DNA of 64,000 nucleotides from Thiomicrorhabdus sp. 6S3-12 (GTDB lineage Bacteria > Pseudomonadota > Gammaproteobacteria > Thiomicrospirales > Thiomicrospiraceae), in assembly GCF_017571475.1 (NCBI RefSeq), contig NZ_JAGETW010000002.1:229752-293751 (forward strand). Direction: 5' to 3'. A model generated the notes under the pieces. That model saw only the letters and a program-made list of their open reading frames with translations, did no database searches and was not told the DNA's origin. This document shows positions 40,720 to 60,587 of this stretch, piece by piece; positions within the stretch are counted from its first letter, which is position 1; each line of letters begins with the position of its first letter. The translations under genes were made by a program, and so were the position numbers.

Positions 40720-41745
40720 ATGACCATGCAAAGATTCATCTCAAAAGCTCCGGCTAATACGATGCTACTGGGCGAACACAGCGTGGTTTACGGCCAACCG
40801 GCTCTGGCATGCGCTCTGGATCAATGGATTGAAATTGAATGGCAGCCACGGGAAGATAAGCAGATTCTGATTTTTTCGGAAATTGCTCAGCACACCTGCG
40901 ACCTGCAACAACTCGAAGTACATCCTAAACTGCAATTCATCGGACTGGCCCTGAAGCATTTTCAGAATGCGCTCTTGCAAATTGGACACGGCTGGGAGTT
41001 ACGCGTGCTCAGCGAATTTCCATCCACCATCGGCCTCGGCAGTTCCGCCGCAGTTCTCGCTGCGACCCTGGCCGGTCTGAATCAGATTACCGGAGATAAG
41101 CTCTCCAAGCTTGAACTCTGGCAGATCGGCAAAGAGATCATTGTCGAAATTCAGGGCCGCGGTTCGGCAACGGATCTGGCCGCCAGCCTTTTTGGCGGCG
41201 TGGTATTTATTCAACCGCCGACGGAAAAACACGCACTGAAAATCGAATCTCTCCCGGTCAATATGGATATTCTTCTTGTATACAGCGGCTATAAGACTCC
41301 AACCGCCGAAGTTCTGGAGATCGTTGCGCAGAACTGGAAAACGCAACCTGAAATGCTCGATGCGCTCTATCGGGAGATGGGACAGATCACCCAAGGCGCC
41401 TACCAGGCGCTGACAGAACACAACTGGCCGGTTTTTTACCACAGTTTCGAGCAATACCAGACATTGATGGAACGTCTCGGCGTCAGCGACATGACGCTGG
41501 ATTTCCTGATCGCCCAACTGCGTGCCTGCCCGCTAATCTGGGCCAGCAAAATATCCGGTTCCGGCCTCGGCGACTGTGTACTCGCGATAGGCGAAGTCTA
41601 TTCGAAACACCGGCCTCAGCGCGAGAAAAAACCGCTGTTGCACGAATGTCCCGAACCGGAAGTCGTCAAAAATTATTTACAGCTCCAGCTGCCGATCAGC
41701 CCTATCGGCACACATATTAAAAACGAACCTGTACAGCAAGCATGA
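40720..41745 (+). CDS. GHMP kinase, probable phosphomevalonate kinase (or second mevalonate kinase)
   Basis: A 341-residue GHMP kinase clearly related to the preceding gene (GEHSVVYG motif), with IGLGSSAAVLAATLAG, QGRGSATDLAASLFGG and KISGSGLGDCVL. The Lys that begins the mevalonate kinase motif is replaced by Asn13 (APANTMLLGEH). A complete pathway needs a phosphomevalonate kinase, and this is the only candidate here. It differs from the eukaryote-type enzyme, so the function is inferred from context. The last bases overlap mvaD (ATGA). Confidence 0.72.
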   Translation: MTMQRFISKAPANTMLLGEHSVVYGQPALACALDQWIEIEWQPREDKQILIFSEIAQHTCDLQQLEVHPKLQFIGLALKHFQNALLQIGHGWELRVLSEFPSTIGLGSSAAVLAATLAGLNQITGDKLSKLELWQIGKEIIVEIQGRGSATDLAASLFGGVVFIQPPTEKHALKIESLPVNMDILLVYSGYKTPTAEVLEIVAQNWKTQPEMLDALYREMGQITQGAYQALTEHNWPVFYHSFEQYQTLMERLGVSDMTLDFLIAQLRACPLIWASKISGSGLGDCVLAIGEVYSKHRPQREKKPLLHECPEPEVVKNYLQLQLPISPIGTHIKNEPVQQA

Positions 41746-42779
41746 ACAACGATCAAAAAAGACAAGCGGCATTCATACGCCACCTTCTTCAATCCAGCAA
41801 AAACAGCAGTCCGCTCACGCCACAGAAAGCCTGTGGCGTCGGTACAGCACCGGTTAATATCGCTCTTAGCAAGTACTGGGGAAAACGTGACAAGGCACTT
41901 AATCTGCCGATTAACGGCAGTGTTTCGATCAGTCTTCCCGGACTGGGCACGGAAACCAGACTGAAACCGATTAACGCCGGAAAAGATCGAATTTCCCTTA
42001 ACGGAAAACCACTTGCCGACAACGCCGTTTTTGCCGAACGTCTTAGCCGCTTTCTGGACTGGTTCCGCGATGACCGCGAGAGCGCTTTCGAAGTGGAAAC
42101 TCATAATACGGTACCGACCGCCGCGGGCCTGGCCTCCTCGGCATCGGGCTATGCGGCGCTGGTTCTGGCACTGGATGATCTTTTCGACTGGCAACTGCCG
42201 AAAGAAACCCTTTCCCTGCTGGCGCGGTTCGGCAGCGGAAGCGCGAGCCGTTCGCTTTTCAACGGCTTTGCCATCTGGCACAGAGGGAGCCGCGAAGACG
42301 GCCTCGATAGTTTTGCCGAGCCGCTACAGGTCGAATGGCCGGATCTGACGATCGGACTGGTCAAAGTGAATACCGGAGAAAAACCGGTCGGTTCAACCGC
42401 CGGAATGCAACAGACCGTAGAAACCTGCGACCTCTACCAATCCTGGCCGCAACAGGCAGAACGCGACCTGCAAACCATTATCAACGCGATCAAATCCAAC
42501 GACTTCAGCACCATGGGAAAAACCGCCGAGCATAATGCACTGAGCATGCATGCCACCATGATCGCCACCTGGCCGCCGATTGTCTACTGGCAGCCGGAGT
42601 CGCTCTCGGCCATGCAGCTGGTATGGTCTCTGCGCGAGCAGAATATCGAAGTCTATTTCACAATGGACGCCGGTCCGAACTTGAAGCTGCTTCTACAGGA
42701 AAAAGATCGCGCCGCGGTACAAAAGGCGTTTCAGGAACGCGGTATCGGTATCGAATTTCTGCACCCGTTTTCCGGTTAA
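41742..42779 (+). CDS. mvaD: Diphosphomevalonate decarboxylase
   Basis: ATP-dependent decarboxylation of mevalonate diphosphate to IPP. The 345 residues have NIALSKYWGKRD at about 39-50, the P-loop NTVPTAAGLASSASG, GSGSASRSLF, and FTMDAGPNLK near the end. These distinguish it from the related GHMP kinases. Overlaps the kinase gene by 4 bases; a strong terminator follows the stop codon. Confidence 0.96.
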   Translation: MNNDQKRQAAFIRHLLQSSKNSSPLTPQKACGVGTAPVNIALSKYWGKRDKALNLPINGSVSISLPGLGTETRLKPINAGKDRISLNGKPLADNAVFAERLSRFLDWFRDDRESAFEVETHNTVPTAAGLASSASGYAALVLALDDLFDWQLPKETLSLLARFGSGSASRSLFNGFAIWHRGSREDGLDSFAEPLQVEWPDLTIGLVKVNTGEKPVGSTAGMQQTVETCDLYQSWPQQAERDLQTIINAIKSNDFSTMGKTAEHNALSMHATMIATWPPIVYWQPESLSAMQLVWSLREQNIEVYFTMDAGPNLKLLLQEKDRAAVQKAFQERGIGIEFLHPFSG

Positions 42780-42835
42780 GGTTAGTCGAATTTCTGTTAA
42801 GTACGAAACCGGCCCACTGTAAAAAGCACAATAAA

Positions 42836-42870
42836 AAACCCCGAAGCGGCATTCCGCTTCGGGGTTTGTT
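42836..42870. terminator. Strong bidirectional rho-independent terminator
   Basis: 14-base arms (42836-42849 and 42854-42867) form a GC-rich stem with a 4-base loop, with T-runs on both strands. It ends the mevalonate block (plus) and sspA-sspB (minus). Confidence 0.93.
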
Positions 42871-42892
42871 TGAATCGCAGACGAACAAACTT

Positions 42893-43363
42893 TTATTTTA
42901 CGATCGACAAGGTCGGACGCTTTTTCTTATCGCTGCCACTCTCGGCGTTATCGCTTTTTTCCGCTTTAGCACCTTTAGAAGCAGGTTCAACCGCTTTCAG
43001 AGGCGAGCTGGCTTGCGACTCACCGCCCTCCTCGGTCGTAGCCTCTTCAGGATATGGCTCGGCCGGGAACGGCATCCCCTGCCCGTTTTCACGGGCGAAA
43101 ACCGCCAGAACCGCCTCAGGCGGAAACGACACGCTCTGTTCCATCCCCTGAAAACGGGCGCTGAAAGAGATCTCTTCGTTGCCCATTTCCAAACCGACAA
43201 CCGCGGTCGGACTGGTGTTGAGAACAATCATGCCTTCCTGTACAAACTGCTGCGGAACATAGGTTCCAGGATAGTTTGCATCCACCTGCATATGCGGCGT
43301 CCAGCCATTATCGACAATCCAGTCATAGATGGCGCGAACCAGATAAGGACGGCTTGAAGTCAT
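42893..43363 (-). CDS. sspB: ClpXP adaptor SspB
   Basis: Stringent starvation protein B delivers ssrA-tagged peptides to ClpXP. The N-terminal tag-binding domain (RPYLVRAIYDWIVDNGWTPH; then GMIVLNTSPTAV and ISFSARF) is followed by a flexible acidic linker and the short C-terminal ClpX-binding tail RPTLSIVK. All three functional parts are present. It lies 3 bases after sspA. Confidence 0.96.
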   Translation of the reverse strand: MTSSRPYLVRAIYDWIVDNGWTPHMQVDANYPGTYVPQQFVQEGMIVLNTSPTAVVGLEMGNEEISFSARFQGMEQSVSFPPEAVLAVFARENGQGMPFPAEPYPEEATTEEGGESQASSPLKAVEPASKGAKAEKSDNAESGSDKKKRPTLSIVK

Positions 43364-43366
43364 AGC

Positions 43367-43999
43367 TTAGTCTCGCATGTCCAGTTCATCGTCCGAAAGA
43401 CTCTCGCCGAACATTTCGCGATTCAATACTTTCTCTGCGTAATCCATAATCGGCTTGGCGCTCTTTGGCAGATCAATTCCAAGATACGGCAGACGCCACA
43501 ACAGAACCGACATGGAAATATCGACCAGAGAATAGTCGTCGCTCATAAAGAAGTCTTTATGCGCAAAAACCGGAATCAGCTGAATCAAACGTTCCTGAAG
43601 GTCGCGGCGAGCGGTTTTAATCGCTTCTTCGTCGCCGGAGTGAGTGATGGTTTCGACCAGCGGATACCACTCGGTTTCAATCTGACGCAGCATCTGACGC
43701 GCACGCGCTTTGGAAATCGGGTCAACCGACATCAACGGCGGATGCGGGAAACGCTCGTCCAGATACTCGATAATCACTTGCGGATCGTAAAGAACCAATT
43801 CGCGATCAACCAGAGTCGGCAAGGTGCCGTAAGGGTTCAGTTCCAACAGGTCTTCAGGCAGGCTGTCCTGGTCGACTTCAATAATATCCATCGGGATATC
43901 TTTTTCTTTGGCAACCAGGCGCACGCGATGGCAGCTAGGACTTTTTGAATCAGAAAATAAAACCATTTGTGAACGCTTGGTCACAGGTACATCACTCAT
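43367..43999 (-). CDS. sspA: Stringent starvation protein A (GST-fold RNA polymerase partner)
   Basis: A glutathione-S-transferase-like protein that binds RNA polymerase and alters transcription in starvation or virulence. The thioredoxin-like half opens with MVLFSDSKSPSCHRVRLVAKEK; NPYGTLPTLVDRELVLYD and the helical half follow. ATG 43999 has AAGGAG 7 bases upstream. The first gene of sspAB; the upstream 230-base gap holds TTGACA (44097-44102) and TATAAT (44083-44088) on the minus strand, but only 8 bases apart. Confidence 0.94.
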   Translation of the reverse strand: MSDVPVTKRSQMVLFSDSKSPSCHRVRLVAKEKDIPMDIIEVDQDSLPEDLLELNPYGTLPTLVDRELVLYDPQVIIEYLDERFPHPPLMSVDPISKARARQMLRQIETEWYPLVETITHSGDEEAIKTARRDLQERLIQLIPVFAHKDFFMSDDYSLVDISMSVLLWRLPYLGIDLPKSAKPIMDYAEKVLNREMFGESLSDDELDMRD

Positions 44000-44230: not shown

Positions 44231-45664
44231 TTGCTTCCCATGTTTGATTTTTTTTGCCAACGGCCGGCTAACAACACGCCGGTGCTGATATTCGTTTTAA
44301 CGGCGGCCTTCGCGTGCGGCTCGAATGCGCAGCAACCCGAACAAGACAGTTTGCAAGAAAACTTTCAACAGAGCGCTCAAAAAACCGCTGCTGACGGCGT
44401 TAAAGAAAAGGAACTTAAAGCCTACCGGTATAGTGACCGCGATCTGTGGGCCAGCCTGCCACAGACGGACTACGATTTCGCCGGCGAAGCGCTCACCCTG
44501 CGAAAAATCGACCAGCCCGAAGCGGACGGTTCACACCTGTTCCTGTTTATCGGTGAAACCGCCGTGCCGAATAACGGCGATGCCCTGGTCATGCAGCATC
44601 TGGCCGAAAAAAATCCGCATAGCGAAATCTGGTTTATCGATACGCCGGATGCGTTGTTTATCGAACGGGAACGCACCGGTATGCGCAATAACGCAGGCGA
44701 TTTCATGCTGCCGATTATGCAGCAGATCACGCAAACCTTCGCGTCGATTACCCTGATCACGATGGACATTGTCAGCGTCCCGGTTCTGCGCGGTTTGAAT
44801 CAATGGCAGTCACAAACCGATCAAGCCCACTTGAGCAAACTGTCGCAACTGATCCTGCTCTACCCCAGTCTGTACGTCAATACACCGGCTGCAGGACGAG
44901 AAAGAGAACTGTTTCCGATCGTAGAACGCAGCGCCTTACCGATCAGCGTTTTTCAGCCACAACTTGGCGCCCAGGCCAATTACATTGATGAATCGGTTAT
45001 AGCACTGCGTCGCGGCGGCAGTTTTGTTCAGCTGGAAAAAATCGCTGACGCGACCGACGGTATCTATAAATTTCAGGATATCCGTGCAATGGCGAAGATC
45101 TGCTCGGATATGATTGATCGCAGTGAAAAGAAAATGCGCCAACTCCGCCAGACAATTAATTATCAGGTTCTGCCGGTGGCACGATTCGACGCGAGCGACT
45201 CACCAAAAAGCGAAATCGTCTCCGGCCTGATTAAGCTGGACGGCACGGCCCAAATGCCCGATATCAAGCTGCATGATTTACAAGGCAATGCGATTGACGT
45301 TCTGGCTGAACACGCGGGAAAAGCGCTACTGATTAATTTCTGGGCAACCTGGTGTCCGCACTGTGTGGAAGAGATTCCGTCGATGAATCGTGCGCTGGCT
45401 CAACTGGATCAGGACCGCTTTGCCATGATCTCCATCTCCTATAAAGATACCGCCGAGATCATGCGTCAGTTCACCCGGGAAATACAGGTCGATTTTCCGA
45501 TTCTCATGGACTATGAAGGTCGTGTTTCCGCGCAATGGAAAGTATTCGCCTTTCCAAGCAGCTTCTTAGTCGACCGTCACGGAGTCATTCGCTACTCCAT
45601 AAACGCCGGTGCAATCTGGGACAGCCCCGATATGCTGGAAAAACTCAGGGAAATCAGTCAATAA
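44231..45664 (+). CDS. Secreted fusion: unknown N-terminal domain plus TlpA-like thioredoxin
   Basis: A 477-residue exported protein. After a hydrophobic signal (about 17-34), residues 80-290 form a domain I do not recognise; alternating strands and helices such as HLFLFIGETAVP and SEIWFIDTPDALF suggest an alpha/beta fold, but no GxSxG motif is seen. The C-terminal 150 residues are a TlpA/ResA-type thioredoxin: PDIKLHDLQGN, INFWATWCPHC (Cys375 and Cys378), and FPSSFLVDRHGVIRY. It probably acts as a periplasmic thiol reductant or oxidant. Start may be TTG 44231 or ATG 44240. Confidence 0.82.
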   Translation: MLPMFDFFCQRPANNTPVLIFVLTAAFACGSNAQQPEQDSLQENFQQSAQKTAADGVKEKELKAYRYSDRDLWASLPQTDYDFAGEALTLRKIDQPEADGSHLFLFIGETAVPNNGDALVMQHLAEKNPHSEIWFIDTPDALFIERERTGMRNNAGDFMLPIMQQITQTFASITLITMDIVSVPVLRGLNQWQSQTDQAHLSKLSQLILLYPSLYVNTPAAGRERELFPIVERSALPISVFQPQLGAQANYIDESVIALRRGGSFVQLEKIADATDGIYKFQDIRAMAKICSDMIDRSEKKMRQLRQTINYQVLPVARFDASDSPKSEIVSGLIKLDGTAQMPDIKLHDLQGNAIDVLAEHAGKALLINFWATWCPHCVEEIPSMNRALAQLDQDRFAMISISYKDTAEIMRQFTREIQVDFPILMDYEGRVSAQWKVFAFPSSFLVDRHGVIRYSINAGAIWDSPDMLEKLREISQ

Positions 45665-53363: not shown

Positions 53364-54047
53364 TTATCGACTTGCCACGACTTTGGTTTCTTTCGGGTCT
53401 TTCTTCTTACCCAGATTCAAATGCGTATGGAAAACAACGATGGTACAGACGCTTTTAACGTTTCCTTCGGTCAAGTTAAAGTTCGCGTTAACCTTATGGT
53501 CGTCAGAACGTAATTCGTTATTACAAGATTCAATCAAATACAGAGGAGATACCCGTTCATTGATTGATTCGAACAAACGCAATAAATCTTCTTCATGCTG
53601 AAGTTCCATGGTCAGCTTGATACGGCTGAAATAGAACATTTTCTGCGGGACCTGAATGGTTTTGAATAACGAGCTGCTCAGAGGTTTTTCCGGCAAAAAT
53701 TCAAAACTGAACTTAGGCATCAGATATCCCTGTTTGAGCTTAATCAGGTTATCCGCCCAGAAAACGCGATCCTGTTTCTTCACCAGACCTTTTTTCATCA
53801 GCTCGGCATATTTCTCACCATACTGCTGGAAGAGGCGAACCTGCTGTTCCAAAAAGGTCACTTCGCTCTTCAACTGATTAAGCTTGGCAATTTTCGGCTG
53901 CGCTTGCGCTTTAAGATCCTTGCTTAACTCGTCAAAACCGTACCAGGCCCCACCGATTGCTGCGACCAAAAGAACGAGGACAATCAACAGGTTCCGAAAG
54001 AAACGCTTAAAAAAGGGATCTTGGACAATATTATTTAGACTCGCCAT
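53364..54047 (-). CDS. MSHA biogenesis MshJ-like (PilO-like) membrane protein
   Basis: A 227-residue bitopic protein with one N-terminal helix (about 18-40), then a coiled coil (55-95) and a small periplasmic domain, the layout of PilO/GspM/MshJ. It overlaps the mshI-like gene by 17 bases. In the machine this protein pairs with the PilN-like partner and links the cytoplasmic ATPase to the secretin. Assigned by topology and gene order. Confidence 0.72.
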   Translation of the reverse strand: MASLNNIVQDPFFKRFFRNLLIVLVLLVAAIGGAWYGFDELSKDLKAQAQPKIAKLNQLKSEVTFLEQQVRLFQQYGEKYAELMKKGLVKKQDRVFWADNLIKLKQGYLMPKFSFEFLPEKPLSSSLFKTIQVPQKMFYFSRIKLTMELQHEEDLLRLFESINERVSPLYLIESCNNELRSDDHKVNANFNLTEGNVKSVCTIVVFHTHLNLGKKKDPKETKVVASR

Positions 54048-55596
54048 CTTTAACCCTCAAAGTTATGCTGAAAGGCAGAGCTTCGACTTCACCTTCATCC
54101 GTATTAATTTTGGTTGCCTGCTTCAAATTACGGTTCAATGGTTCTTCATCCAAGGAAACCGACTCAATGTTTTTCAATTTTTTGAGGTCATCGACCAGAG
54201 CATCCACCCAGTAAACCGGCTTTCTGTAGGTTTCATAAAACGGGAAAACCCAGCCTTCGATGGCGATTTCATGCCGTTGGCTGTCCATTGCCTGAAGGTT
54301 TTTCCAATTCATGTCTTTGAGTTGAATATTCGGATGGCGTTTTAAGGTTTCGCTGAAATCCTGAATATTAAAACCAACCAGTCTGTCGACACGCAGACTC
54401 AGAACCGCTTCTGAAAACTCAACCGAAGCTTTGATCTGCTGGGCGTCGTCCTGGAGCTTGACCAGCTCGGTCAAACGCTGCTTTTCTCTCTCGTGCGCCA
54501 CGATATTTTGATCAAGCAATCCCAGTTTTTGCCAGTTCAGATAGTTATCAACCGAATTCACTAAGACAAACGCCAGCCCACCGAGAAGAAGCGCTATATT
54601 AACCGCATACAGACTTTTACGCGCCAGCTGGAAGTTTTGCAAGCGTTCAATATAAGGCGTGCTATAAAAGCCTTTGAGTGAATGGTTGAAAAGGAAATCA
54701 ACCGCCGCCTGTTCGGAATAGCAGCGGGCTTCTTCATTGCAATATTGCAGCCCTCCGCCCAACTCTTTGTAGGTCTTTTTCGCAAAGTAGAAGTTATTAC
54801 CCCATGAACCGCGAATGATCCCGTTTTCACGACAATCTTCTTCGATATCCTTTAAAACGGCCTCATTCTCATCAAGAAAGATCAGACCAATAGGATGATT
54901 GAACGGGATAATTTTCTGGTTGTACACATAGGTAATCGCCAACTTGGTCTCTTCAAGAAGCGCTTTATGAATCTCGTCCGCCTGCTTAAACTCCTCTTCA
55001 ATCTGTACCGGGCGACTTAAACGCATCTGGCCGCCGTGGAAGAAAGTCTGTCGGTAATTTCTTTCTGAGTGACGGGAAATAATCAGAAAAGGAAGCTGTT
55101 CCTGTTCTTTAGATAATTTAAGTTCAGGCTTAACGACACTGCGGAAATACTCCTGCAGCAGGAACGGTTTGGAATAAATCCCTTTAATTAAAACCTGTGC
55201 GGCTTCAAGACTGTTCAAAAAACGTGTTAGCTTGAACGAATCGCTGATGGTAGCAGAAAGAATCAACTCCTCTTTACGCCCTTCGTCCGATTTACGATTC
55301 TGATTCGTTGAATGAACTTCGGAGAGCGCGATATTCTCGCCCATCAAACGTTCGCGGCGACGTTTCAGAAGCGCGCTCTTCTCCCAAGGCATCACTTTCG
55401 GAACCCATTCGAAGAAAAGGTCTTCATCCACCAGATCAAGCAGAAGCATCACCTCGCTTTTGGCAGAAAGCCCGGAAATGAAGAGATCAATCTGCGCGAT
55501 ATCGTCCCATTCAAATGTTTCGACTTCCTCTCCGACTTCCCTTACATTTTTGTAAGCCTTAAAGCCGGATTCAGTAACATAAAGTACATATTGCAT
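54031..55596 (-). CDS. MSHA biogenesis MshI-like (PilM-PilN-like) protein
   Basis: A 521-residue protein: a large cytoplasmic part (1-325), one membrane helix at about 332-352 (VNIALLLGGLAFVLVNSV), a coiled coil and a periplasmic end. This fits MshI, in which a PilM-like cytoplasmic domain and PilN are fused. No clear actin-like ATP motif is visible. The start is ATG 55596, one base after the stop of the 34-codon mshG-like frame (TAATATG); a longer reading to 55644 would run across that frame. Confidence 0.68.
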   Translation of the reverse strand: MQYVLYVTESGFKAYKNVREVGEEVETFEWDDIAQIDLFISGLSAKSEVMLLLDLVDEDLFFEWVPKVMPWEKSALLKRRRERLMGENIALSEVHSTNQNRKSDEGRKEELILSATISDSFKLTRFLNSLEAAQVLIKGIYSKPFLLQEYFRSVVKPELKLSKEQEQLPFLIISRHSERNYRQTFFHGGQMRLSRPVQIEEEFKQADEIHKALLEETKLAITYVYNQKIIPFNHPIGLIFLDENEAVLKDIEEDCRENGIIRGSWGNNFYFAKKTYKELGGGLQYCNEEARCYSEQAAVDFLFNHSLKGFYSTPYIERLQNFQLARKSLYAVNIALLLGGLAFVLVNSVDNYLNWQKLGLLDQNIVAHEREKQRLTELVKLQDDAQQIKASVEFSEAVLSLRVDRLVGFNIQDFSETLKRHPNIQLKDMNWKNLQAMDSQRHEIAIEGWVFPFYETYRKPVYWVDALVDDLKKLKNIESVSLDEEPLNRNLKQATKINTDEGEVEALPFSITLRVKDGESK

Positions 55597-55597
55597 A

Positions 55598-55702
55598 TTA
55601 TTGTACCTGCGAAATAGTATCGTAAATCGGACCGAGAACGGCAATTAAGACCCAGCCAACGATAAAGCCGATGATAATGGTTAAAAATAGTTCGATCATC
55701 AT
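55598..55702 (-). CDS. 34-codon frame duplicating the MshG C-terminus
   Basis: A short frame (ATG 55702 to TAA 55598) encodes a single membrane helix whose sequence matches the last 32 residues of MshG, 26 of them identical, including GFIVGW, IAVLGPIYDTISQVQ. Thirteen of the 26 conserved residues use a different synonymous codon, so the copy is old and was under protein-level selection. The mshG stop lies 31 bases upstream and the mshI-like start 1 base downstream. There is no strong ribosome binding site. It may be a translated microprotein or the tail of a lost second mshG. Confidence 0.6.
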   Translation of the reverse strand: MMIELFLTIIIGFIVGWVLIAVLGPIYDTISQVQ

Positions 55703-55733
55703 GCCAAATATGACCCGTGGTATTGTCCGACGA

Positions 55734-56939
55734 TCATAGTTGAACCTGAGAAATCGTGTCGTAAATCGGACCTAGTACTGCAATCATAATCCAACCTACA
55801 ATAAATCCCATGATCACGGTCAAAAGCGGTTCAATTGTTGGCTCGATTTTTTCAATCAGTTCTTTCGCTTCACGGTCATAGAAATAACTGACGTTCTTTA
55901 AAGCGACATCCATCTTACCGGTTAACTCTCCGGACTTGATCATACGCACTGCCATCATAGGGAAGGCATCGGAATCCCGGAATGAAACCCAGATCTCTTT
56001 ACCGTCCTCGATCATATTGACGGCATTCAGGAAATTCGTTTCCAGAAACTTATTACCCGCGGTCATACTGGCCATTCGCAGACTTTCAGGAAAGCTGACA
56101 CCGGCACCGTACATAACCGACAGAGAGTTGGCTACGCGTGCCAGTTTCAATTTATGCAAGACGACGCCGATAATGGGAATCTTCAAATGAAACTCGTCCG
56201 ATTTGAGCTTGAATTCCGGAGATTGTTTGCGCCACCAGGAATAGACAAATACGAAGATTACCGGCGCCATCATCAGCTCAAGAATATATGTTTGGATAAA
56301 GTCTGAAGTGGCAATCAAAGCGACTGTCGCAAAACCGATTTCCCCACCCATTGAGGTAATAAAGCCCAATAGCTCCGGTACCACAAACAACATCATCAGG
56401 ATAACAACCGCGATAACAACGGTAGCCACAATGGCCGGGTAGATCATGACCTTCTTCGCCTTGGAAGCCAGTTCGTCTTCCCACTTCATCATATTACCGA
56501 GATCGCGCAGAATGTCTTCCAGCTTACCGGTTTTTTCACCCACCGAGACTAGAGAGATATACACCTGACCAAATTCTTTTTCGAAATCAGCCAGTGACTC
56601 GGAAAAGGTATTCCCCCCTTCCATCGACTCGTAAATATTGGCCAGCATCTCTTTAGCTGCGTCATTTTCAAAGGAGTCTTTCATATCCTCGATGATTTCC
56701 ATCAGAGGAACACCCGCTTCAAGCATCTGCTCAAGCTGGAAAGTAATCGTGATAATGTCGCGTTTCTTGATTTTAGACCCAAAAGAAAGCGATAAGCCTT
56801 TACCCTGTTGACGGTAACTCAAGAGGTCAATTTGCGACTTTTTCAGCTTTTGCTCAAGATCCTGCTCATTGTTCGCCGGCATGACGCCCGAGACACGCTT
56901 ACCAAGCTGATTGATCCCTGTGTAATTATAGTTTTGCAT
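55734..56939 (-). CDS. mshG: MSHA pilus inner-membrane platform protein MshG (GspF/PilC family)
   Basis: A 401-residue type II secretion F family protein with two repeats of the GspF domain and membrane helices at about 170-190, 215-235 and 375-395. VSVGEKTGKLEDIL and MIKSGELTGKMD are the paired family motifs. It anchors the assembly ATPase MshE and takes up pilin. ATG 56939 has AAGGAG upstream and follows mshE by 10 bases. Confidence 0.93.
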   Translation of the reverse strand: MQNYNYTGINQLGKRVSGVMPANNEQDLEQKLKKSQIDLLSYRQQGKGLSLSFGSKIKKRDIITITFQLEQMLEAGVPLMEIIEDMKDSFENDAAKEMLANIYESMEGGNTFSESLADFEKEFGQVYISLVSVGEKTGKLEDILRDLGNMMKWEDELASKAKKVMIYPAIVATVVIAVVILMMLFVVPELLGFITSMGGEIGFATVALIATSDFIQTYILELMMAPVIFVFVYSWWRKQSPEFKLKSDEFHLKIPIIGVVLHKLKLARVANSLSVMYGAGVSFPESLRMASMTAGNKFLETNFLNAVNMIEDGKEIWVSFRDSDAFPMMAVRMIKSGELTGKMDVALKNVSYFYDREAKELIEKIEPTIEPLLTVIMGFIVGWIMIAVLGPIYDTISQVQL

Positions 56940-56949
56940 CGATTGCTCC

Positions 56950-58635
56950 TTACAACAGCTCAGTCAAGTCAACAACACGGCTGACTTCATCCAAAGTCGT
57001 GTCTCCTTTCTTGACCCAGTTAATGCCGGCATGTGCCATATCGATAAACCCTTTTTCCTTTGCCTTATTTAAAATGGCGTGCTGTGAAGCACCTTCCAAT
57101 AAGAGATCATCCATTTCACCGTTAAAACGCATGGTTTCCAACAGAGCCAAACGGCCTTTATATCCGACACCATTACACTTGGTGCAGCCTTTCGGGTGAT
57201 ACAGAGTAATGTCTTCATCCGGCTCAAGGCCCAATAGCTTTTTCTCGAACGACTCGGGCTGGTATGGTTCTTTGCACTGACTGCAGAGTTTACGTACCAA
57301 TCGCTGAGCGACAATACCGATAATATTTCCGGATAGAATCGAACGCGATACACCAATATCCAAAAGACGGGGAATCGCACCAATGGCCGAGTTAGTATGC
57401 AAAGTCGCGAATACCTGGTGCCCCGTCATCGCCGCACGCAAGGCCATTTCCGCGGTTTCCCCGTCTCGAATCTCACCGATCAGAATAATATCCGGATCCT
57501 GACGCAACAGCGAACGTATCCCTGCGGCAAAATCCATCCCGATCTCTTCATTAACAGGCGTCTGACGTATCAACGACATCGGGTATTCGACAGGATCTTC
57601 CAAAGTCATGATATTGACGCCCATATCATTCAACTCATTCAAAATCGAATAAAGCGTCGTCGTTTTACCGGAACCGGTCGGCCCTGTAACCAGGAATATT
57701 CCCGTCGGACGAGCGATCATTAATTTCAAGTCGTGATAGGCTTCTTCGGCCAGTCCTAGTTTATCAAGAGGAACAATCCCCTTTTCACGGTCGAGGATAC
57801 GTAACACGAAGTTCTCACCGTGAGTACAGGGCAGAGAGGAGACACGGAAATCGATTCTTCTCCCTTGAACCACCAGAGTCATTCGACCATCTTGAGGTAG
57901 CCTCTGCTCGGTCAAATCCAGATTGGACATAACTTTCAAACGTACGACTAAGCCGGACCAGAACATCTTATGCAGCAGGCGGATCTCCTGCAGTACGCCA
58001 TCAATACGGTAACGGATGCGAATATAGTCTTCTTCAGGCTCAAAGTGGATATCCGAGGCATTGCGCTTAACCGCATCTGTCAACAGGTTATCCACAAGTC
58101 GGACCATTGGTTGGGCATACTCGTTCGAGTTGCTGGTCGCCGTCATATCGACTTGACCGGTCTCAAGCTCCTTTAATATGCCCTCGATCGATAACTCATA
58201 GCCATAATAGTTATCAATCGCATTTTGTATTTCCGCCTCTACAACCAGTACCGGTTCAATACGCACATCACTGCGTTGCAGATGACGTCTCAATTTGTCC
58301 AGAACCAGAATATCGCCCGGGTTCGACATACCGACCTTAAGTACATTGTCGGATAAACTGATCGGCATTAATGTGTAGTTGTGGGCAAAGGTTTCTGAAA
58401 CCAGCGAAATCGCTTTTGGATCCGGAACAACATCCTTTAAGCTCATGGCGGTAAAACCGCCATAGGTCCCTACGACTTCACGCAGTGTATCAACACTGAT
58501 AAAGCCCATACCGACCAGTGTTTCGCCCAGCTTTTGACCGTTTCGCTTCTGTTCAGTTAAAGCGATATTTAACTGATCGCGAGTAATGTAGCCATCGCGT
58601 ATTAAACGCTCACCGAGACGCTCCGGATATTGCAT
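56950..58635 (-). CDS. mshE: MSHA pilus assembly ATPase MshE (GspE/PilB family)
   Basis: A hexameric secretion ATPase of 561 residues. The N-terminal MshEN domain (ERLGERLIRDGYITRDQLNIAL), known to bind c-di-GMP in Vibrio MshE, is followed by the Walker A motif GPTGSGKTTTLYS around residue 317, the Asp box and Walker B (DIILIGEIRDGETAEMA), and a tetracysteine zinc site CSQC...CTKC. The start ATG 58635 shares one base with the mshN stop (TGATG), with GGAG upstream. Confidence 0.95.
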   Translation of the reverse strand: MQYPERLGERLIRDGYITRDQLNIALTEQKRNGQKLGETLVGMGFISVDTLREVVGTYGGFTAMSLKDVVPDPKAISLVSETFAHNYTLMPISLSDNVLKVGMSNPGDILVLDKLRRHLQRSDVRIEPVLVVEAEIQNAIDNYYGYELSIEGILKELETGQVDMTATSNSNEYAQPMVRLVDNLLTDAVKRNASDIHFEPEEDYIRIRYRIDGVLQEIRLLHKMFWSGLVVRLKVMSNLDLTEQRLPQDGRMTLVVQGRRIDFRVSSLPCTHGENFVLRILDREKGIVPLDKLGLAEEAYHDLKLMIARPTGIFLVTGPTGSGKTTTLYSILNELNDMGVNIMTLEDPVEYPMSLIRQTPVNEEIGMDFAAGIRSLLRQDPDIILIGEIRDGETAEMALRAAMTGHQVFATLHTNSAIGAIPRLLDIGVSRSILSGNIIGIVAQRLVRKLCSQCKEPYQPESFEKKLLGLEPDEDITLYHPKGCTKCNGVGYKGRLALLETMRFNGEMDDLLLEGASQHAILNKAKEKGFIDMAHAGINWVKKGDTTLDEVSRVVDLTELL

Positions 58636-60587
58636 CAAGGCTCCATCAAACTGTGCTGTTTCAGAATGACCAAACGCTCTTTAATTGCAGACTGGTCAAT
58701 CGCTGTCGTGCTATTTGCATAAACAAGAGCCTGGGTATAGTAATCCGCAGCCAATTTATACTTGTTCAGATGATCCAGACTAATCGCCAGATTCATCAAA
58801 TACACCGCTTGATTCGATTCAATTGAAACAGCATTGAAATACGACTCCTGAGCCTTGAACCAATCTTGTTTGCGAGCCATGAAGTTTCCTAAAGCATTTT
58901 GCAGGACAGCAGATTTAGGATTTCTTTCCGCAAGCTCTGTCAATTGCTGCAACCAATCATCGGTCGGAGCCGTAACAGAATTTGCAATTTCTGCGACCGC
59001 TTCTAGAGCAAACGGATTGCCTGGAGCGAGCTTAAGAACCTGCAAATAGGTTTCAACGGACGTGGACGGATCCCCAAGTGCATTTTGCGAAGCCGCCAAC
59101 CCGATTAGCGCTTTGATATTTTGCGGATCACGCTCCGAAACAGCCTTAAAAGCATCTTGCGCATTTTGCCATTCGCCCCGCTGATAATATTCATACCCCT
59201 GCACCAGCTGCTGTTGTGAAGGCGTCAGTGCTTTTGAACGCGTAATCATAGCCGCTTTGGCAGCAGGCTTAGGCTGAATAATCGTTGAGTTGACAGTATT
59301 GAGGACCAATACCTTGTCAGTTGTTCTCAGCGGCTTCGCTTTAGGCTCAGATTTTGTCGAAACCGCTTTAGAAGATTTCGATACGCCACTCGAACTGGTC
59401 GCTTTTGTCACCGATCGGGCTGGTTTGACAGCATTCGTAGATGCAATCGACTGATCAGAAGTTTGACTATCAATCGCCGTGGTTTCCTGTGTTTCATTTG
59501 AAGCCGGTTCCATTGTAGAATCGGCCATAACAGTGTCACCGTTTAAGCCATCCACCTTATCCGATTCAGTATCAACCTGTTCAGGAATTTTAGGCAGCTC
59601 AACTTGAATCGGCGTAATTTTATATTTATCAAAACTTGCTTCAAGCGCCTGGTTTTGCTGATCGAAATAGAAAGCCGTGTATAGACCGATACAAACAAAT
59701 GCCGTTAAGGAAGTTAAAGCCAGCAACGTTTTCGGATTGCTCAATAAACCGCCTGTTGAGTAAGGTTTACTATGCGCATTTTTGGTCAATACAGAGTTCT
59801 TGGCGAGTTTTCGTTCTTCCTCGCTACTCTCAGCTCCCTGATTTACGGCACTAGCCGCAACTTCTTTCTTACTCGCCTCTCCATCGGGAACATAAGCAGG
59901 AAGCTGCTCAAGACCCCACTCGAAACTGTCGTCCTCAGATTTGGCCTCTTTAACCTTGCTGTCATCAACCTGCTTTGCAGTCGTTTCCTTTTCAGCTGAA
60001 GCGGGTTTAGCAGAGTTCATAACAGGTGACAAATCAGGTTCAGGCAAAGAATCTTCATCAAGCGAACCAGTTTCAATTACCGGTAAATCTGTAGATTTGC
60101 TTGATTCTGGATTTGCGCTTGTAGGCTGTGATAATTTTTCCACTTCAGAATCAGACACGTCTTCAGTAGGGATGGAAAAATTAAGCTTAGTCGCAGGAGG
60201 CGTTTGCTGACGGGCTTCCAACTCAACATCATCGATCGAATTGCTTTCCTGAGCTGAGTAGATATTACCTCTCACCGGGGTTGCCGCCGATTCAGGTTCC
60301 TGAATAAGTTCATCAAGATCTCGCGAGCCACTTGTTTGTACAGGTGTTGCTGGCTCGAGTTTCAAAGAAACCGTAGCCTCAGGCACAGAGGGTTCTCCGG
60401 TTTCCGGTGCAGAAGAAGCAGTCTCAGGAGCGCTATCAATCTCTCCCGGAACGCCTTCTGAAGAAAATGAGCTGTTCGTTTCCGAGGGGTCTTTTTCACT
60501 TGGAGAGGACTCAACCTCAGACTCCTTGGCAGCTAACTTGTTCTTTTCTTCAGCTGCTTTTTTTAAAGCTTCAAGTAATACACTCAC
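58635..60587 (-). CDS. mshN: MSHA biogenesis MshN-like protein (TPR, bitopic)
   Basis: A 650-residue protein. The first 285 residues are acidic, Ser/Glu/Pro-rich and probably disordered, apart from an N-terminal helix. A single membrane helix lies at about 288-310 (LLALTSLTAFVCIGLYTAF), then a second low-complexity region, and TPR repeats from about 450 to the end. MshN in Vibrio has the same plan but is shorter. The start is GTG at 60587. Located between mshL and mshE as in other MSHA loci. Confidence 0.8.
   Translation of the reverse strand: MSVLLEALKKAAEEKNKLAAKESEVESSPSEKDPSETNSSFSSEGVPGEIDSAPETASSAPETGEPSVPEATVSLKLEPATPVQTSGSRDLDELIQEPESAATPVRGNIYSAQESNSIDDVELEARQQTPPATKLNFSIPTEDVSDSEVEKLSQPTSANPESSKSTDLPVIETGSLDEDSLPEPDLSPVMNSAKPASAEKETTAKQVDDSKVKEAKSEDDSFEWGLEQLPAYVPDGEASKKEVAASAVNQGAESSEEERKLAKNSVLTKNAHSKPYSTGGLLSNPKTLLALTSLTAFVCIGLYTAFYFDQQNQALEASFDKYKITPIQVELPKIPEQVDTESDKVDGLNGDTVMADSTMEPASNETQETTAIDSQTSDQSIASTNAVKPARSVTKATSSSGVSKSSKAVSTKSEPKAKPLRTTDKVLVLNTVNSTIIQPKPAAKAAMITRSKALTPSQQQLVQGYEYYQRGEWQNAQDAFKAVSERDPQNIKALIGLAASQNALGDPSTSVETYLQVLKLAPGNPFALEAVAEIANSVTAPTDDWLQQLTELAERNPKSAVLQNALGNFMARKQDWFKAQESYFNAVSIESNQAVYLMNLAISLDHLNKYKLAADYYTQALVYANSTTAIDQSAIKERLVILKQHSLMEP

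Follow-up and report, generated by a model that had tools for sequence, protein, structure and literature searches.

Organisation of the mshG–mshI junction

The window, by which we mean the whole stretch of 64,000 nucleotides analysed here, comes from a bacterium grouped with Thiomicrorhabdus (genome G000). On its minus strand it carries, in this order, mshE, mshG, a frame of 34 codons, mshI and a pilO-like gene; gene order and a preliminary description of the DNA are the basis for the names mshG, mshI and pilO-like. The features of the junction are as follows.

56950–58638, minus strand: mshE, the assembly ATPase and upstream gene (Pfam T2SSE and MshEN; NCBIfam MshE-related c-di-GMP domain).
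55734–56939, minus strand: mshG, the inner-membrane platform protein of 401 amino acids (Pfam T2SSF), ending in ...QVQL-TGA.
55740–55835, minus strand: the tail of 32 codons now attached to mshG, possibly incoming as weakly suggested by difference counts over 96 nt against relatives.
55744–55747, minus strand: AGGT, found in the sequence 6 nt ahead of the ATG that overlaps the mshG stop.
55699–55737, minus strand: a 12-codon frame, MIVGQYHGSYLA, whose ATG overlaps the mshG stop (ATGA) and whose stop overlaps the start of the 34-codon frame (ATGA).
55703–55733, minus strand: a 31-nt spacer between the mshG stop and the 34-codon frame, with a pattern confined to G000 and one other genome, G020.
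55598–55702, minus strand: the 34-codon frame, a likely displaced mshG 3' end according to the frame itself, the mshG search and the junction and codon comparisons.
55605–55608, minus strand: AGGT, the Shine-Dalgarno-like site of mshI, within the QVQ codons of the displaced tail and 8 nt before the ATG.
54031–55596, minus strand: mshI, starting 1 nt past the stop of the displaced tail, with an N-terminus, MQYVLYVTESGF, similar to that of relatives.
53364–54047, minus strand: the next gene, mshJ/pilO-like by position only, which overlaps mshI and has no NCBIfam match.

The mshI product had no match in Pfam or NCBIfam. The layout of the 12-codon frame is the same in G020, with Y changed to F.

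Sequence of the 34-codon frame and the spacer

The 34-codon frame, hereafter the fragment, lies between mshG and mshI at the position and on the strand given in the preliminary description, and its translation is MMIELFLTIIIGFIVGWVLIAVLGPIYDTISQVQ. A codon alignment over 96 nt agreed with two further claims of that description: 26 of the 32 residues are identical to the last MshG residues before the terminal Leu, and exactly half of the identical ones (13 of 26, the codon rows being compared by eye) are written with other codons. In all, the fragment and the mshG tail are separated by 6 amino acid, 23 nucleotide and 18 third-position differences. The likeness to MshG is not due to chance, as judged by the E-value of 8.1e-11 obtained when the genome was searched with its own MshG. 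The fragment alone gave nothing significant against Pfam (the best hit, E = 0.078, fell below the cut-off), and its peptide is hydrophobic, with a 19-residue mean hydropathy of 2.9.

The preliminary description had also pointed to TATGATCGT at the mshG stop as an echo of TATGACCGT that may mark the junction. The former is indeed present, but we rejected it as a junction marker and read the echo as coincidence, because TATGAT is simply the overlap of the mshG stop with the following ATG and is also found at the mshG stop of another genome, G024, where other bases follow. By eye, the spacer has no visible likeness to the mshG codons expected ahead of the tail. A 30-nt stretch covering most of it (at most 3 mismatches allowed) occurred once each in G000 and G020 and in 0 of the 56 other genomes among the 58 searched; the spacers of G000 and G020 differ at 2 of 31 positions.

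The fragment in related genomes

We searched 58 genomes with MshG, of which 56 matched; allowing one place per genome, we used the 30 with the highest scores as loci and examined the mshG–mshI junction of every one. The other 28 of the 58 genomes stand outside this count and are made up of 24 that belong to other genera and four congeneric ones (G006, G010, G014 and G031) with no, partial or only distant match to MshG. The start of mshI falls within −4 to +8 nt of the mshG stop at 27 of the 30 loci; G000 and G020 have 137 nt between the two, and G024 has 50 nt. The frame, which had been described as conserved, is absent from 28 of the 30 junctions, but in one other species, G020, it is open and nearly identical (2 nt different). 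Across the order, 55 of 62 genomes had at least one match to the tail, and only G000 and G020 had two copies. The fragment is a real feature of two species, and an assembly error is not favoured, as the element turns up in G000 and in G020, which are separate genomes, and one of the two is a single contig.

In G024, the TGA stop of mshG overlaps the ATG of a 16-codon frame that ends in ...YDTIAQVP-TAA, 3 nt before mshI. This frame keeps about 8 of the tail codons together with CAGGT, and its last codon reads Pro. From its sequence we read it as a shorter remnant of an mshG end, and such a vestige agrees with what one would expect to be left if nothing but the mshI initiation site and a bridge to it mattered. 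Since G024 and G000 are not sisters in the tree, accounting for both remnants takes two events, a single event followed by losses, or a transfer.

Which copy is the resident mshG end

The fragment and the mshI start that follows it are contiguous with the mshG end and mshI start of G013, G025 and G011, at 85, 80 and 78% identity, respectively, over 116–136 nt, and a 23-nt stretch of this junction, CAGGTACAATAATATGCAATATG, is identical in G025. It is the fragment, rather than the tail now on mshG, that lies flush with mshI as in these relatives, and for this reason the alignments make it likely that the fragment is the 3' end of the resident mshG, displaced from its gene. A complete gene is accompanied here by a displaced homologous fragment of its own end.

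The tail now on mshG is the extra copy, and unlike most relatives it ends in ...QVQL with a TGA overlapping an ATG. Among the best 120 of 459 homologues, a QVQL or KVQL end was found in five (P0001, P0002, P0005, P0006 and P0080). P0005, of 401 amino acids, is 87% identical to MshG of the window and has the same QVQL end.

In trees, nucleotides 1–1050 of mshG group with G011, G013 and G025, as do mshE, mshI and pilO together. Because the body of the gene groups with the same sisters as its neighbours, mshG is native as a whole, and we rejected the reading of a wholly foreign mshG. The preliminary description had considered that the fragment could be the tail left when a divergent incoming mshG replaced most of a resident gene: a left-over tail is what the junctions support, but replacement of most of the gene does not agree with the native body. 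As for the last 96 nt of mshG, these show 14 differences to each of G024 and G002 (G020 aside), and 16, 21 and 21 to G025, G013 and G011, respectively, which gives a weak indication that the last ~100 nt may be foreign. This origin is weak because a similar affinity to G024 is seen elsewhere, and because a tree of the 96-nt tail did not resolve the grouping. When 96-nt segments of four genes were compared, G024 was nearer to G000 than all three sisters in 104 of 1468, and nearer by at least 2 differences in 79 of 1468, most of them in mshE and five being the tail itself. No integrase-bearing element lies between mshG and the fragment, only the 31-nt spacer, and the 201-nt region had no match in plasmid and phage collections. 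A mobile element or phage as the source of the insert was rejected on this result and on the absence of the spacer pattern from the 56 other genomes.

Selection on the fragment

Between the fragment and the mshG tail, dS is about 2 and dN 0.10, which suggests that, for most of the time since they separated, both were coding DNA under constraint. Constraint on both tails is expected if they come from different mshG lineages. Against the mshG tails of G000, G013 and G025, the fragment gave dN/dS values of 0.05–0.13, where dS is near saturation and some pairs, including that with G011, gave no dS estimate, so that these ratios are rough. The dN of the fragment to the tails of the sisters was 0.10–0.14, against 0.03–0.06 among the functional pairs compared (G000/G020, at 0.00, was left aside). 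Five residues are private to the fragment (Leu, Phe, Ile, Ile and Leu at tail positions 3, 4, 7, 9 and 17), occurring in 0 of 20 functional tails; at three of these sites (3, 9 and 17) every one of the 20 has Pro, Met and Met, respectively. Functional tails within the genus have at most one private residue each, those of G000 and G020 being near copies that cannot show any, while the outgroup G033 has four. On these residues, the fragment peptide looks relaxed since its displacement. Selection on the protein, as put forward in the preliminary description, fits the time as a working mshG end, but after displacement the five private residues and the raised dN look like relaxation. Compared directly, the G000 and G020 fragments differ in a single codon (TTA/ACA, L/T in the helix), which amounts to 2 nonsynonymous and 0 synonymous changes.

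At third positions, 0 of 34 codons of the fragment differ between G000 and G020, whereas in gene interiors 3422 of 15,004 do (22.8%; 43 genes of the window passing the filter). By simple arithmetic, 0 of 34 at this rate has a probability of about 1.5e-4. Gene ends differ according to their spacing: in the last 33 codons, 8.6% of third positions differ in genes closely followed by another (12 genes) vs 19.0% in 30 others (p = 0.0013 in a one-sided Mann-Whitney test, with mshG counted in neither group), and at 8.6% the probability of 0 of 34 is about 0.05, which is borderline. The fragment behaves like the end of a gene abutting its neighbour, because its 0 of 34 compares with 8.6% at abutting ends and 22.8% in interiors. 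Conservation is likewise seen in the present mshG tail, where 2 of 33 third positions differ, though this tail no longer abuts mshI. Closely spaced gene ends in general conserve their third positions between G000 and G020 beyond gene interiors, as exemplified by the last 33 codons of mshE with 0 differences.

The low divergence of the fragment could instead stem from recent exchange between the two species, of which a 1.8-kb near-identical tract elsewhere in the window may be another example. The insert is not part of a long near-identical tract, as the 300 nt at 55849–55550 hold 10 differences between G000 and G020. Across the comparison, 9% of all 136-nt segments have at most 4 differences and are as similar as the insert.

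The probable initiation site of mshI and the overlapping frames

AGGT was found within 20 nt upstream of mshI at 29 of the 30 loci, within the terminal codons of mshG or of its remnant, and its spacing to mshI is 6 to 10 nt in 28 of those 29, with 15 nt in G036. On sequence grounds, the end of mshG is likely also the ribosome site of mshI. In G000 and G020 this Shine-Dalgarno-like site lies in the fragment, and in G024 CAGGT is kept.

From mshG to mshI, the frames overlap or nearly touch in a series of ATGA, 12 codons, ATGA, 34 codons and TAAT-ATG, which is the same in G020. Each start is at or near the stop upstream of it, with steps of −4, −4 and +1 nt, a geometry that would suit translational coupling. 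In shuffled sequences, with starts within 8 nt of a stop, such a relay arose by chance in 9.3, 6.6 and 6.0% of cases under three schemes when only ATG was allowed as start, and in 26, 24 and 18% with ATG, GTG or TTG; the bridge in G024 arose in about 70% of shuffles with the ends kept. Since shuffling gives a relay this often, we describe it as anatomy and not as a statistical result.

Published work in E. coli (PMC10666635) found that a gap of 38 nt lowered reinitiation by 80–90% for two gene pairs and abolished it for another, and that the terminal 15 nt of the upstream gene were enough for coupling. By analogy, a gap of 137 nt devoid of frames would be expected to break the coupling of mshG and mshI, and the relay would keep it. 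An RNA element at the junction is unsupported: folding of 55570–55760 gave z = −0.09, and Rfam had no match in 55300–56000.

Discussion

We favour the explanation, at a probability of roughly 0.55, that the fragment is the original mshG 3' end, displaced by an inserted second end and kept for the mshI site and the frame that it carries; the case is built from sequence comparison. A second mshG 3' end together with the 31-nt spacer would have been inserted ahead of the old end by recombination with related DNA, perhaps through one-sided homology. The fragment would then have been kept for its last codons, which hold the Shine-Dalgarno-like site of mshI, and its frame, if the relay is used, would pass ribosomes on to the mshI start; the peptide itself would probably be without function. 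Retention for the initiation and coupling of mshI is outside the readings of the preliminary description. In its most specific form, which we put forward tentatively from the arrangement of the frames, the displaced gene end may have turned into a ribosome relay, with two tiny serial frames leading from mshG to mshI across a 137-nt scar and a shorter version in G024.

A plain recombination scar is the main rival, less favoured and in our judgement rather doubtful, though serious. The displaced tail would here be neutral except for the last ~15–20 nt with the mshI start site, and the frame would be open owing to a recent event or exchange. This accords with the five private residues, with the fact that the sole difference between the G000 and G020 fragments is one double-hit, nonsynonymous codon, with the existence of near-identical tracts between G000 and G020 and with G024, which retains a short vestige only. 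On the other hand, all 34 third positions are unchanged where 22.8% usually differ in gene interiors, and the spacer has only 2 of 31 changes; nor does the insert lie in a long near-identical tract (10 differences in the 300 nt around it). Another view of the origin, whatever the function, is an ancient tandem duplication in the common ancestor of the six species G000, G020, G011, G013, G025 and G024, after which the second copy disappeared from G011 and from G013/G025 and decayed in G024. The tail end GWIM...QVQL shared by G000, G020, P0005 and P0006 (a close match to MshG of G024), the TATGAT common to the stops of G000, G020 and G024, and a divergence of the copies near saturation all speak for it. 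We nevertheless regard it as unlikely: given the tree, it needs two clean losses that each restore the tight mshG–mshI junction, and the protein encoded by the copy would have lasted for long in G000, yet been lost in G024.

The preliminary description also offered a translated one-helix membrane microprotein with its own function alongside MshG or MshI, for which we found little positive support and which we consider improbable, the least supported of the readings. The frame is open in two species and hydrophobic, its dN/dS to the mshG tails is low (with dS near saturation), and its start codon overlaps the stop of the preceding short frame, so that translation is possible. The low dN/dS is, however, accounted for by its past as an mshG end, and the private residues include the sites of the Pro and two Met that are invariant in the 20 functional tails. 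The L/T difference in the helix without any synonymous change, and the absence of the frame from nearly all junctions, also argue against it. A protein search with a 43-codon stretch of the fragment frame, restricted to proteins of similar length, gave no candidate sharing three 5-residue words.

Displaced gene ends of the kind that we propose have counterparts in several systems. In genomic islands of the Islander type, the target gene reportedly regains its 3' end from the incoming DNA, and the displaced end of the target remains downstream. The icd/icdC pair with e14 is a parallel case, with a regained 3' end and the old end downstream. Unlike such ends, the fragment is accompanied by no island or integrase, and only 31 nt separate it from mshG.

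In the Acinetobacter cdi loci (PMC6336857), old gene ends are displaced 3' and persist as orphan remnants, like the fragment, and illegitimate recombination beside homologous sequence is proposed as their origin. The new ends there are non-homologous, whereas the new mshG end encodes almost the same residues. With termination–reinitiation coupling at 4-nt and 1-nt overlaps (PMC10666635, PMC6728339), the locus shares the ATGA overlaps and the Shine-Dalgarno-like site inside the upstream gene, and in those systems short upstream 3' fragments are enough and long gaps abolish coupling. Those cases are coupled whole genes, unlike the present series of a displaced gene end and a 12-codon frame, which is known here from its sequence. 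The nearest mechanism is that of the mycobacterial interspersed repetitive units (MIRUs), repeats that insert at start codons and seem to be mobile (PMC12548453). The junction has in common with them a frame of its own coupled at −4 nt, by position only, with ATGA overlaps where mshG ends and where the 34-codon frame begins. Unlike MIRUs, the fragment is single-copy and derived from the upstream gene, and repetition in the genome was not seen, the 30-nt spacer pattern being single in both G000 and G020. A further likeness is the minigene of the axe-txe operon, a tiny frame before a gene that raises the expression of that gene in cis; it has two codons and, unlike the fragment, does not come from a neighbouring gene (PMC8708949). 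Among the papers listed for mshG, mshI and MSHA, the titles and abstract openings suggested no such element, which does not prove that none has been published.

Fragments of genes that lie between the members of an operon are often dismissed as scars or proposed as microproteins. The reading favoured here offers a third possibility, namely that a fragment stays since the end of one gene doubles as the start site of the next, and it could help to explain the synonymous-site conservation at abutting gene ends in G000 and G020. If it is true, displaced gene ends can be retained as coupling elements rather than as peptides. G000, G020, G024 and the uninterrupted relatives provide natural variants of the junction that bear on the coupling constraint of gene ends.

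Divergence elsewhere in the window

Other parts of the window vary widely in their divergence between G000 and G020. At 41700–43499, 1.8 kb hold only 9 differences in a region that is otherwise about 10% different, and this tract looks like a recent exchange between the two species; it covers a diphosphomevalonate decarboxylase-like gene, sspB and part of a GST-domain gene (sspA-like by position). A local peak of divergence lies at 44300–44399, where 39 of 100 bases differ, and may be an alignment artefact. In the msh region, 101 of 1206 nt differ in mshG and 100 of 1689 in mshE, and the TPR-containing gene upstream of mshE (58635–60587), with 285 of 1953 nt different, diverges far faster.
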